Below, piece by piece: positions 31,512 to 36,245 of a stretch of DNA of 64,000 nt. The notes under the pieces are model-generated. The model saw nothing but the letters and a program-made list of their open reading frames with translations, was not told where the DNA came from and did no database searches. The number at the start of each line of letters is the position of its first letter. The stretch's first letter is position 1. A program made the translations under genes and the position numbers. This stretch comes from an uncultured Mollicutes bacterium. GTDB taxonomy: Bacteria > Bacillota_I > Bacilli_A > RFN20 > CAG-826. The stretch covers positions 1 to 64,000 of the forward strand of contig CAMESG010000001.1 in assembly GCA_945936135.1 (NCBI GenBank), written 5' to 3'.

Positions 31512-33320
31512 ATGTACGACCACCAACTCGTTGAAGACTTATTAAAGAACGCCGACATCGTTGACGTCGTTCGTCATTACCTCCAAGGCAGCCTTATCAA
31601 AAAAGGAAAGAATTACGCCGCGGTTTGCCCCTTCCATGACGACCATGATCCCTCTTTGTCGGTCAATACCGACCTGCAGATCTATAAATGCTTCGTGTGC
31701 GGGCATGGCGGTAACGCCATTCGCTTCGTGCAAGAATACGAAAAGATCTCTTTTCCGGAAGCCATCCGGAAAACCGCCGAAATCGTCGGATTTCATGATC
31801 CCAGGCTGCTTTCTTCGCTTCCGGTTGCAAAAATCGACCCTGAGAAGAAACGCCTTTACGATTGCATCGTGGACGCGCAAACCTTCTACGCCTATATGCT
31901 TTCTACCTCCGAAGGCAAAGCCGCGAAGGACTATTTGGCAAAACGTGGTATGGATGATGGGATCATCGAACAATTCGGGATCGGTTACGCCCCGGCGGAT
32001 GGAGCGAAGACAATTTCCTTCTTGCAAAGCAAGGGGCACTCGTTAAAATCCATCGAAGATATCGGCATTGGTTTGCCCAACGGCATCGATCTAAAGGATC
32101 GCAATGCCGGGCGCATCACCTTCCCGCTAAAAGATGCCAAAGGACGGGTTGTCGGGTTCTCCGCTCGACAACTCATTAAGGATCCAAACAGCGGTAAATA
32201 CGTGAATTCGCCCGAAACGCCGATTTTCCACAAGGGAAGCGTGCTTTATAACTATCATAACGTTTCCGAAACAGCACGTCGCGAAGGCTATTGCTATGTT
32301 TTGGAAGGGTTTATGGACGTTATTGCCTTAGACCGGGCCGGTTTGAAGAACGCGGTGGCCTTGATGGGCACGGCCTTGACCGAAGAACAAGTTCAAATGC
32401 TAAGGAAACTTGGCTGCGAGATCCGCTTGTGCCTCGATGGAGATAACGCCGGGCAAATGGGCATGATGAAGGCGATTTCGCTCTTCACGAAAGCCAAAGT
32501 GCCCTACCGCATCGTCGATTACGGCGGAGACCAACGCGACCCGGACGACATTTTCCAAGAAGAAGGAAAGGACGCTCTTTGCAAGAAGATGGAGCATCTC
32601 TCCGACGGCCTTGAATTCCAATTGTCGTATTACGCGAACGTCAAAAAACTCTCGACCACGGAGGAAAAAGGAGCGGTCATTCGCCATTTTGCCCCTCTAT
32701 TTGCCCTAGAAGACGAATTGACGAAGGAAAACCACATCGCAAAGCTCGCCAAAGCCCTGGACTTCGAGCCAAGCGCCTTGCGTTTGCTTGTCCAAAAGGC
32801 AGGAAAAGAAGGCGGAGAAGAAGGAAACGTGCGCTTCTCAAGGCAGAATAGGATCTCACCTAACGCGGCGATGGCGGGACGAACCGCCAATCGTCTAGCC
32901 AAGGCCGAAGACACGATCCTCTATTACGCTTTGAGCTCGGAAGAAGCGAGAGCCTTCCTTCAAAACGAGGACAATCCCTTGTTTTCGACGGTCAAGCGCA
33001 ATTTGATCTTCTATATCCTCGATTACGCGAAAAACAACGAGGAGTTCGATATTCGCGGTTTGATGTCCTACATCGAATCGCAAGATCCAGAAGAAGAATA
33101 CAGCGGCCTGATCGCCGATCTATCGACGAGAAAGAAAGCGATGCTTCCCTATTCCGAACGCCAAATCCGAGATTGCCAAAAGGCGATCCTGGAAGAAAAA
33201 GATAAGGCAAGAAGCACCTTCCATACGGAAAAGGCCCTCGAAAGCGGAGATAAGGACACGATCCTTGCCGCCATCAACGCCGTGACGGAGAAAAACCGTG
33301 AGCGGTGGAAAAAGAAATAA
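31512..33320 (+). CDS. dnaG: DNA primase DnaG
   Basis: Makes RNA primers at the replication fork. The zinc domain has Cys39, His42, Cys60 and Cys63 (CPFHDDHDPS, CFVCGHGGN). The Toprim core has VLEGFMDVIAL and LCLDGDNAG. A C-terminal helicase-binding region completes 602 residues. AAAGGAGG precedes the ATG. It leads a macromolecular-synthesis operon with rpoD, the second sigma gene and trmK. Confidence 0.97.
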   Translation: MYDHQLVEDLLKNADIVDVVRHYLQGSLIKKGKNYAAVCPFHDDHDPSLSVNTDLQIYKCFVCGHGGNAIRFVQEYEKISFPEAIRKTAEIVGFHDPRLLSSLPVAKIDPEKKRLYDCIVDAQTFYAYMLSTSEGKAAKDYLAKRGMDDGIIEQFGIGYAPADGAKTISFLQSKGHSLKSIEDIGIGLPNGIDLKDRNAGRITFPLKDAKGRVVGFSARQLIKDPNSGKYVNSPETPIFHKGSVLYNYHNVSETARREGYCYVLEGFMDVIALDRAGLKNAVALMGTALTEEQVQMLRKLGCEIRLCLDGDNAGQMGMMKAISLFTKAKVPYRIVDYGGDQRDPDDIFQEEGKDALCKKMEHLSDGLEFQLSYYANVKKLSTTEEKGAVIRHFAPLFALEDELTKENHIAKLAKALDFEPSALRLLVQKAGKEGGEEGNVRFSRQNRISPNAAMAGRTANRLAKAEDTILYYALSSEEARAFLQNEDNPLFSTVKRNLIFYILDYAKNNEEFDIRGLMSYIESQDPEEEYSGLIADLSTRKKAMLPYSERQIRDCQKAILEEKDKARSTFHTEKALESGDKDTILAAINAVTEKNRERWKKK

Positions 33321-33342: not shown

Positions 33343-33359
33343 AGTAAGGGAGAATGAAC

Positions 33360-34691
33360 ATGCCGAACAAAAAGACGAAAACCCAAGAAGAAATCAAGAA
33401 AGAGGAAGCGGAAGAAACGATTACCCTTTTTGATGACGACGCGGACGAAGAAACCTGCGCCTCCGCCGAAGCAAAGCTTCTCGAAGATGGGAAGAGCGCC
33501 GGCGAGTTGAGCATGGAAGAAATCCATCTCGCGCTCGATAAGTTCGATTTGACCGCGGAAGCGTTCGACCAAGCGATTGAAAAGCTTAAAAAAGCCGGTA
33601 TCAGCATCGAATCCTCCGATGATGAGGAAGAAGATGTGCCAGAAGATTTCGAAGCCATGGCCGTCGAAGAGGAAGAAGAACTCGAAGAGGAAGTAGATCT
33701 CGAAGAAGATGCGGTCGATAGCGAGGAAGCGGAAGCGGCGAACATGAGTGAAGCCGACCTCAACCACATGACGATCGGCGAAGTCAAAAACAACGACGCC
33801 GTGAAGATGTACCTCAAGGAAATCGGCAAGGTCAACTTGCTGAATCCGAAGGAAGAGCCGGAACTCGCGAAGGCGATCATCGTCGGAAATGCCCCGAACG
33901 CCACCGAGGAAGAAAAGGAGGCCGGACGCCTCGCCAAAGAGAAACTGATCACCGCGAACCTCCGTCTCGTCATCTCCATCGCCAAACACTACATCGGCCG
34001 CGGCATGCAATTGCTCGACCTCATCCAAGAAGGCAACATGGGCTTGATCAAAGCCGTTGAAAAGTTTGACTACACCAAAGGTTTCAAATTCTCAACCTAC
34101 GCTACGTGGTGGATTCGTCAGGCGATCACCCGCGCGATTGCGGACCAAGCGCGAACGATCCGCATCCCGGTTCACATGGTGGAAACCATCAACAAGATGA
34201 CGCGTGTGCAACGCCAACTCGTCCAGGAGCTAGGCCGCGATCCGACCGCCGAAGAGATCTCCGAGAAGATGGAAGGCGCTTTGAGCCCGGAAAAGATCCG
34301 CGAAATCCAACGCATCGCCTTGGAACCCGTTTCCCTTGAAACCCCGATCGGCGAAGAAGACGATTCTCACCTTGGGGACTTTATTGAAGACAAGGAGTCT
34401 GAATCGCCCGTCGAGTATGCGACGAAGGCCATGAAGAAGGAAGCCTTGCTCGAAATCATGAAGGAATTGACCCCGAAGGAAGAGAAAGTCCTCCGCCTTC
34501 GTTATGGTCTAGACGACAGCCGTCCCCGCACCCTTGAAGAAGTCGGCCGCCAATTCCAAGTCACCCGTGAGCGCATTCGTCAAATCGAAGCCAAGGCGAT
34601 TCGCAAGCTTCGCCACCCGGCCCGCATCAAGCGTCTAGGCGACGCCCGCGATACGGCCTTCTTGAGCAATTTGCCCGATACCAACGAATAA
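33360..34691 (+). CDS. rpoD: Primary sigma factor RpoD (SigA)
   Basis: Housekeeping sigma-70. I chose the ATG at 33360, 8 bases from AAGGGA; an ATG at 33354 is too close to it. 443 residues: a basic head, a region 1.1-like part (about 45-85), a very acidic linker, region 1.2 ([13 protein letters not shown]), region 2 with [20 protein letters not shown], region 3, and region 4 with [20 protein letters not shown]. The core promoter residues are conserved, which fits the TTGACA/TATAAT promoters seen here. The next gene is its paralogue, with 1 base between. Confidence 0.98.
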
Positions 34692-34692
34692 A

Positions 34693-35565
34693 ATGCCCTC
34701 TTCCCGTCTTGAGAAAGAAAACGTCTCTTTCCTTAACGAAGGAAGGGCGTTTTATTTTTCTTCCTTGCAACAAGCACCCGTCTTAAGCGATGAAGAAGAG
34801 GCTCATCTCCTTTCCGCCTTCCAAAAAGGAAAGAAGGAAGATGCTTCTCAAGAAGAAAAGGACGCTTCGAGGAAAGCCAGAGAAGAGCTCTCTTCCTCCT
34901 TGCTTCCCATGGTCGTTATGCTCGCTGGGCAATATGAATCGCCTTACGCGAGTTTCATGGATCTTGCTTCCGCGGGCCATCAAAGCTTGCTCTCGGCGCT
35001 AGATGCCTATGACGCTTCAAAAGAAACGAAACTATCGACCTTTGCTTACGTTTCGATCCAAAACGGGATGCGTTCGTTCTTGAAGAAGGAACTAAAGGAA
35101 GCAAACCTCCAAAACATTCCCTACGAGATGTATCAAAGGATCAAAGAAACGCAGACCGACCTTGAAGAAAGAGGCTTAACCGCGGATGCCGAGGCCATCG
35201 CCTCAATTCAAAAAGACATCTCGATGGAAATCATTGAAAAAGCCCTTTCTAGCGCCACTTCCTTGGTGTCGTTGGACAAACCGAAATCTTCGGGCGAGAC
35301 TTCCTTGCTAAATTCCATCGCCTCTTCCGCCCCGCTTCCTAGCGATCTATTGGATCAAGAGGAAACGATACGGAGGCTTGACGAGGCCTTCACGAGTTTA
35401 AGCCCAAAAGAGCGGTTTGTCCTCGCTTCGGTCTATGGGCTAGAGGGGCAAAGGAAGAAAACGATGAAAGAAATCGGGAAGACCCTTTCCTTGAGTGGGG
35501 AAAGGATCCGGCAAATCAAACTGCAAGCGCTCCATAAGCTGCGCTTGGCCTTCTTAAGGAGATAA
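34693..35565 (+). CDS. Diverged sigma-70 paralogue next to rpoD
   Basis: A 290-residue sigma factor-like protein. Region 1.2-like LSDEEEAHLL lies at 31-40 and region 2 at about 62-132. The DNA-melting part reads KLSTFAYVSIQNGMRSF where RpoD has [17 protein letters not shown], so the tandem Trp and the -10-contacting Gln/Arg are replaced. Region 4 (about 227-285) keeps SGERIRQIKLQALHKL. It shares with this RpoD an inserted stretch (EEK-A-R-A-EL pattern), which points to a local duplication. There is no region 1.1. It probably directs polymerase to other promoters; targets are unknown. Confidence 0.8.
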   Translation: MPSSRLEKENVSFLNEGRAFYFSSLQQAPVLSDEEEAHLLSAFQKGKKEDASQEEKDASRKAREELSSSLLPMVVMLAGQYESPYASFMDLASAGHQSLLSALDAYDASKETKLSTFAYVSIQNGMRSFLKKELKEANLQNIPYEMYQRIKETQTDLEERGLTADAEAIASIQKDISMEIIEKALSSATSLVSLDKPKSSGETSLLNSIASSAPLPSDLLDQEETIRRLDEAFTSLSPKERFVLASVYGLEGQRKKTMKEIGKTLSLSGERIRQIKLQALHKLRLAFLRR

Positions 35566-35567
35566 CG

Positions 35568-36245
35568 ATGGCGAGAAAACTGTCCAAACGGCTTCAAACG
35601 ATCGCGGATTTGGTCGAACCCGGCTGCTTTTTGGCGGACGTCGGCAGTGATCACGCCCTTTTGCCGATCCATCTTGTCCAAAGCGGCAAGATCTCCTGGG
35701 CGATGGCCATCGAGAACAAGATCGGCCCCTTCCTTCATATGTCCGCGGCGATCAAAGATGCCGAATTGAACGCCAAGATCTTCGCATCGAAAAGCGATGG
35801 CATCAGCGTGCTCGCGGATGGGGTGAATGCCCTTGCCGTCTGCGGCATGGGTGGCTTATTGAGCTGTAAAATCCTCGAAAGCCACCCCGAGAACCTTCAA
35901 AACATTCAATCCATCGTCACCGATCCGCATCGTGATCTAGAGGCAGTCCGTAGAAGGGTCACGGCCTTGGGCTACTATATTGACGATGAGCGCATGGTCT
36001 ACGAAGATAAGATCTATTATTCGATCATCCGGTTCAAAAAAGGAAAGCCTAGCAGGCCCTATGCCCTCGCGGATTACCTCTTTGGGCCGATTCTTCGCAA
36101 AAGAAGGGATGAGGTCTTTCTCGAATGGTTGGAAGCGCAGTTAAAGAAAATCAACGCGATTCTCAACAAAAACTTAGGAAAAGAAGCGAGAAGCAAGTAT
36201 TTGGCCTTGTACCGTTTGGTGCGAGACGAAATCGCAAAGAAGTAG
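35568..36245 (+). CDS. trmK: tRNA (adenine22-N1)-methyltransferase TrmK
   Basis: Methylates A22 of tRNA. The SAM-binding start is FLADVGSDHALLPIHLV, followed by CGMGGLLSCKIL as the catalytic-pocket segment, and the C-terminal coiled coil typical of TrmK (about 165-225). 225 residues. In Bacilli trmK follows sigA; here the second sigma gene has been placed between them. A GGAG site lies inside the end of that gene. Confidence 0.93.
   Translation: MARKLSKRLQTIADLVEPGCFLADVGSDHALLPIHLVQSGKISWAMAIENKIGPFLHMSAAIKDAELNAKIFASKSDGISVLADGVNALAVCGMGGLLSCKILESHPENLQNIQSIVTDPHRDLEAVRRRVTALGYYIDDERMVYEDKIYYSIIRFKKGKPSRPYALADYLFGPILRKRRDEVFLEWLEAQLKKINAILNKNLGKEARSKYLALYRLVRDEIAKK

Follow-up and report, generated by a model that had tools for sequence, protein, structure and literature searches.

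A second sigma-70 gene between rpoD and trmK

The window, that is, the entire stretch of 64,000 nucleotides analyzed here, comes from the genome of an uncultured Mollicutes bacterium of the gut and includes the gene array glyS-dnaG-rpoD-X-trmK, where X denotes an ORF of 290 amino acids (34693–35565, plus strand). The run that includes X opens with dnaG (DNA primase; 31512–33320, plus strand; Pfam DNAG_N, Zn_ribbon_DnaG, and Toprim), followed by rpoD (33354–34691, plus strand), which encodes the 445-amino acid primary sigma factor with regions 1.1, 1.2, 2, 3, and 4 all above the Pfam cut-offs. The rpoD gene ends at 34691 and X starts at 34693, 1 base downstream, exactly where the original prediction had put an RpoD paralog. 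The gene for tRNA adenine-22 N1 methyltransferase, trmK (35568–36245, plus strand; Pfam TrmK, 136.8 bits), follows after 2 bp, with its own AAGGAG at 35556–35561. As also predicted, no anti-sigma gene adjoins X, the neighbors being trmK and the opposing ispH.

The profile search proposed with the prediction places X in the sigma-70 family: Sigma70_r2 (32.0 bits; cut-off 24) and Sigma70_r4 (45.0 bits; cut-off 24.1) are both recovered, whereas regions 1.1, 1.2, and 3, all present in the neighboring RpoD, are undetected by Pfam in X. The best NCBIfam scores come from RpoD/SigA models, and from RpoS models too, all far below the cut-offs; only the superfamily model TIGR02937 is passed. X falls outside group 1 (RpoD/SigA), having no region 1.1 and scoring 92 bits against RpoD_Cterm, for which the cut-off is 354. 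The solved structures closest in sequence are SigA, RpoD, and RpoS. The AlphaFold2 model of X (mean pLDDT 81) has its first helices at region 1.2 and contains the sigma2, sigma3, and sigma4 helices, including a predicted three-helix region 3 (35122–35250, plus strand; helices 144–159, 166–172, and 178–186) that is unseen by Pfam. Foldseek searches with this model retrieve the SigA, RpoD, and RpoS chains of holoenzymes, with SigA/RpoD ranking first; the low whole-chain TM-scores presumably reflect flexible domain placement.

Assignment of X to a known alternative family such as SigH, SigB, SigF, or RpoH, which the original prediction had named as grounds for refutation, is not borne out, as no family model is passed. 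In particular, the family-level models for SigB/SigF/SigG, FliA, RpoH, and RpoS all score far below their cut-offs. The predicted region 3 helices and the lack of an anti-sigma neighbor speak against an ECF (group 4) sigma. SigE/SigK was examined with region-wise models derived from the RpoDs and the sporulation sigmas of the order. Region 4 of X (35338–35559, plus strand) is RpoD-type (48.5 bits with the RpoD model vs 27.3 with SigE/K) and the locus is that of rpoD, so that we reject this assignment as well. Region 2 is a near tie, slightly closer to SigE/SigK (31.0 bits vs 25.2 for RpoD), so that this part of X has moved towards alternative-sigma sequence.

Both changed and retained residues of X occupy positions whose roles are established for sigma70, namely, core binding (positions 403, 406, 407, and 409 in the E. 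coli numbering), −10 reading and melting (430–441), and −35 reading (585–589). In region 2.3/2.4 (KLSTFAYVSIQNGMRSFLKK; 35002–35094, plus strand), AYVSIQNGMR aligns with the corresponding RpoD segment, giving Y430F, W433V, W434S, R436Q, Q437N, T440R, and R441S; the predicted loss of the tandem Trp and of the −10-contacting Gln and Arg is thus confirmed residue by residue. The core-binding segment carries Q406S, E407A, and N409H and retains D403, as does every X copy. The prediction that the −35-reading helix is kept also holds: in GERIRQIK (35497–35520, plus strand), within region 4, E585, R586, R588, and Q589 are unchanged and R584 is replaced by G. Among the 14 X copies of the genus, E585 and R588 are invariant and Q589 is present in 11.

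No Shine-Dalgarno sequence is evident before X in the window (start context ...TAAAATG); elsewhere, X overlaps rpoD by 1–4 bases in several genomes, and a good Shine-Dalgarno sequence precedes some of the X genes. Translation of X is probably coupled and low, which would set its level below that of RpoD. The first codons of X contain a hairpin followed by a T-rich tract (34717–34753 or, within wider limits, 34717–34760, plus strand; −14.7 kcal/mol; z −3.75 for the hairpin alone), a possible attenuator that could end transcription after rpoD unless ribosomes follow. We rejected a conserved attenuator or terminator at this site: the hairpin occurs in the window genome and some others, and is not found in the nearest X-bearing relatives, such as G007, or in most other X genes. 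In a scan for an operon promoter, matches were no more frequent than in shuffled sequences. The gene spacing is what suggests the proposed constant co-expression of rpoD and X.

Distribution and divergence of X in the genus

The genus is represented by 31 genomes, of which 27 have a readable rpoD locus. In 14 of these, X occupies the site between rpoD and trmK that it has in the window (the G024 contig stops before trmK); in 12, trmK directly follows rpoD. The X gene of G011 (L090, 493–1299) is full length with one in-frame TAG at codon 92, either a real null allele or an assembly error. The original prediction had warned of absence or breakage in close relatives; the genus shows both absences and this one interrupted copy alongside the 14 intact ones. 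A species tree was built from five proteins (DnaG, RpoD, TrmK, IspH, and a DEAD helicase). On it, three changes explain the distribution of X, namely, one gain at the base of a 21-genome clade (support 100/99) and two later losses; the five outer genomes of the genus have neither X nor the 12-residue insert described below. Thus, the 12 absences are accounted for by two losses and an outgroup that never had X. Furthermore, the sub-groups of the X tree match the species groups, which, together with this mapping, indicates vertical inheritance. X is, then, a clade-level, losable gene. Among the named matches are Candidatus Alloenteromonas pullicola (L108) and rumen and gut MAGs labeled Bacilli or Erysipelotrichaceae; we found no published report of the rpoD-X locus in the open-access literature. 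A record titled as a Staphylococcus epidermidis MAG (L114), probably mislabeled, also has a dnaG-rpoD-trmK locus that matches the uncultured lineage studied here.

Five sigma factors are matched in the window genome (1.23 Mb, 100% complete), none of them a sporulation sigma. Besides RpoD and X, its ORF lists yield a short sigma at the nusG-rlmB site that SigH occupies in B. subtilis, and two ECF-like ones. Elsewhere, an ECF-type sigma gene (L094, 825–2339 / 2336–2905 for the pair) overlaps the gene for a 504-amino acid membrane protein that resembles a serpin on visual inspection; a DNA methyltransferase and a likely partner nuclease lie nearby. A genome without X carries an ORF of 139 codons from stop to stop (L191, 428–845; G026:C59) that consists of an RpoD-like region 4 alone and ends in KKLRHPARAK.

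X evolves fast under purifying selection. Nei-Gojobori dN/dS values in four close species pairs are 0.059 (G008/G028), 0.129 (G008/G009), 0.116 (G009/G028), and 0.076 (G024/G030); they come from relatives of the window genome, for which the comparison with the nearest X (G007) is saturated. With RpoD at 0.02–0.05 and TrmK at 0.08–0.13, X resembles TrmK and DnaG, and its values indicate a functional gene rather than decay. Identity is 44% for X vs 80% for RpoD between G008 and G014 and 34% vs 75% between G000 and G007, and tree path lengths exceed those of RpoD from about 7-fold (G008–G009) to 21-fold (G000–G007). The ORFs nevertheless stay intact down to 25–34% identity, and the DNA-reading and core-facing parts are, overall, better conserved than the linker.

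The X proteins differ in how much of the RpoD architecture Pfam still detects: regions 1.2-2-3-4 in G029 and G014; 2-3-4 in G010, G008, and G013; 2-4, with region 3 weak or undetected, in G012, G007, and the window genome; and 2-4 only in G020 and in G024, where region 4 is just below the cut-off. The Trp pair is complete in G029, reduced to the second Trp in G025, G010, G008, G009, G028, G014, G024, and G030, and lost in G013, G012, G020, G007, and G000. We tentatively propose, at somewhat less than even odds, that the genus forms a natural series in which an in-place duplicate of the primary sigma was turned stepwise into an alternative one, from G029-like forms (1.2-2-3-4, WW) through that of the window genome to those of G020 and G024 (2 and 4 only). 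Region 1.1 would have been lost first, and regions 1.2 and 3 would then have faded; each sub-lineage would have remodeled its −10 helix independently, and the −35 helix would have been the last to change. The species compared are sisters alive today rather than successive ancestors, so that the order in time is our reading of the architectures. If correct, the series would illustrate how sigmas resembling groups 3 and 4 can emerge from group 1, the two factors being produced from a single operon that lacks an anti-sigma gene.

The arrangement, predicted to be unusual, is not unique: several other families also have rpoD copies in tandem. Further tandem or near-tandem copies were found in G032, G039, G040, G044, G052, G057, L103, L107, and L145, and a class-wide sample of 119 genomes added those in G114, G154, and G172; in G120, as in G060, a sigma gene lies 3' of trmK. 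In G032 (L061), a second, near-complete RpoD is encoded upstream of rpoD and downstream of dnaG, and an insert specific to this genome is present in the two copies; this pair is a separate tandem duplication. A member of another family of the class (L207, G127:C2) has three consecutive, weakly RpoD-like ORFs of 399–603 amino acids with unusual, coiled-coil-like tails. One MAG, RUG14006, contains two near-full RpoDs on different contigs (L165 and L150), the second of which has neither dnaG nor trmK matches next to it.

Origin of X

RpoD of the clade and most clade X proteins have in common a 12-residue insert between regions 1.2 and 2.1 (in the window, 33888–33929 in rpoD and 34831–34872, KKEDASQEEKDASR, in X, both on the plus strand), so the alignment substantiates the predicted sharing of an insertion. 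The insert is absent from the X protein of G012 and one residue short in those of G024 and G030; in an alignment of ~140 RpoDs, only G040 and G051 have it among the other RpoDs inspected. On the species tree, X and the insert appear on one and the same branch. Once the insert is left out, all RpoDs are equally similar to X, and a local origin cannot be argued from similarity alone. The AU test rejects grouping X with the RpoDs of the genus (p 1e-7) as well as separate recent duplications in two sub-clades (p 0.014 and 0.004), and retains a single clade of all X proteins of the genus (p 0.28). Given X branches of 2–7 changes per site, we read the rejection of a local origin as long-branch attraction, without considering the matter settled. 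An origin from the RpoD of the clade appears more likely than not, judging from the insert and synteny. The proposed scenario of local duplication followed by divergence agrees with the insert, the synteny, and the shared branch, and is at odds with the AU test and the insert-free comparison. NCBIfam and Foldseek rank RpoD/SigA first for X, and the sigma tree puts it outside the RpoDs of the genus.

The alternative, which concerns the origin and not the function of X, is that an old alternative sigma merely came to lie beside rpoD, the insert having been acquired by gene conversion or by chance. The sigma-protein trees, with the strong AU rejection, would fit such a history, as would the region 2 scores, at least as good against SigE/K; the X proteins of L103/L107 and of family f5, which lack the insert, may also group with those of the genus. 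However, the insert and X arise on the same branch, region 4 is RpoD-type, branches of such length are drawn to outgroups, and the younger tandem copies in G039, L145, and G032 match their own RpoD best, which indicates that this locus was duplicated in place more than once. We therefore regard an old sigma as unlikely, albeit worth serious consideration.

Function and relation to known sigma factors

The best explanation, to which we assign a probability of about 0.6, is that X acts as a functional alternative sigma that arose when rpoD was duplicated in place, no later than in the ancestor of the 21-genome clade, and that has been inherited vertically since. Presumably co-transcribed with rpoD, X would compete for the same core RNA polymerase, keep RpoD-type −35 reading via region 4 and, through the replaced −10 residues, steer the polymerase to a limited number of promoters in which a standard −35 element is paired with a different −10 element. 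The replacement of all three core-binding residues Q406, E407, and N409 in the window X counts against this explanation; these changes fall in the same range as in functional SigE/SigK, which have S/I/T at these positions.

The same losses could make X a catalytically dead brake that occupies the core or −35 elements without melting the −10 region and so damps RpoD transcription: both melting Trp, the −10 readers, and Q406/E407/N409 were lost in the clade, and the −35 helix stays. Functional SigE and SigK work without both Trp, so that such losses do not show X to be dead; moreover, W434 is kept in 9 of the 14 genus copies, and there would be no call for a brake to acquire lineage-specific residues and keep them under purifying selection. 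We consider such a role improbable. Still less probable is a group 2-like backup that serves RpoD promoters under stress: the copies in G029, L103, L107, L145, and G039 do keep WW and most −10 residues, but in the window X the −10 contacts are replaced, whereas RpoS of group 2 keeps WWIRQ. Hardly any weight is left for a decaying duplicate without function. The absence of X from two sub-lineages and the in-frame TAG in G011 would be expected of decay; the 14 intact copies over a long divergence speak against a pseudogene, and the dN/dS in relatives rejects it.

Ideas on how alternative sigmas derive from the housekeeping one come mostly from inference on ancient cases that have run to completion. 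In the present group, the adjacent RpoD and X of related species have diverged to many different degrees, with purifying selection that can be measured, so that the order of change in core binding, −10 reading, −35 reading, and domain loss becomes testable in vitro. How a cell copes with an additional sigma made from the very operon of rpoD is a further question posed by this locus.

Among the known systems, group 2 sigmas (RpoS, cyanobacterial SigB-E, and Streptomyces HrdA/C/D) are RpoD-like and lack region 1.1 (PMC4598750), as does X. They are also non-essential, with which the absence of X from 12 genomes of the genus would be consistent. They retain the RpoD readers of both the −10 and −35 elements; W433, W434, R436, Q437, T440, and R441 are all changed in X, which, in addition, is in tandem with rpoD. 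SigE/SigK resemble X in region 2.3/2.4 (SIQNGMRSFLKK in X vs CIENEILMHLRKK), with N437 in common and both Trp lost, and differ in region 4, in the locus, and in that the window genome has no sporulation sigma match. The 'alternative primary' sigmas of Burkholderia and actinobacteria are, in the parts of the description available to us, paralogs attributed to rpoD duplication that keep all RpoD promoter-reading domains, unlike X, and the tandem layout seen with X does not figure in that part of the account (PMC2194791). With RpoD/SigA, finally, X shares the fold, region 4, the insert, and the operon, and it differs in lacking region 1.1, in regions 1.2 and 3 that escape detection, and in altered regions 2.2–2.4; X looks like a duplicated master sigma turning into a new alternative one.
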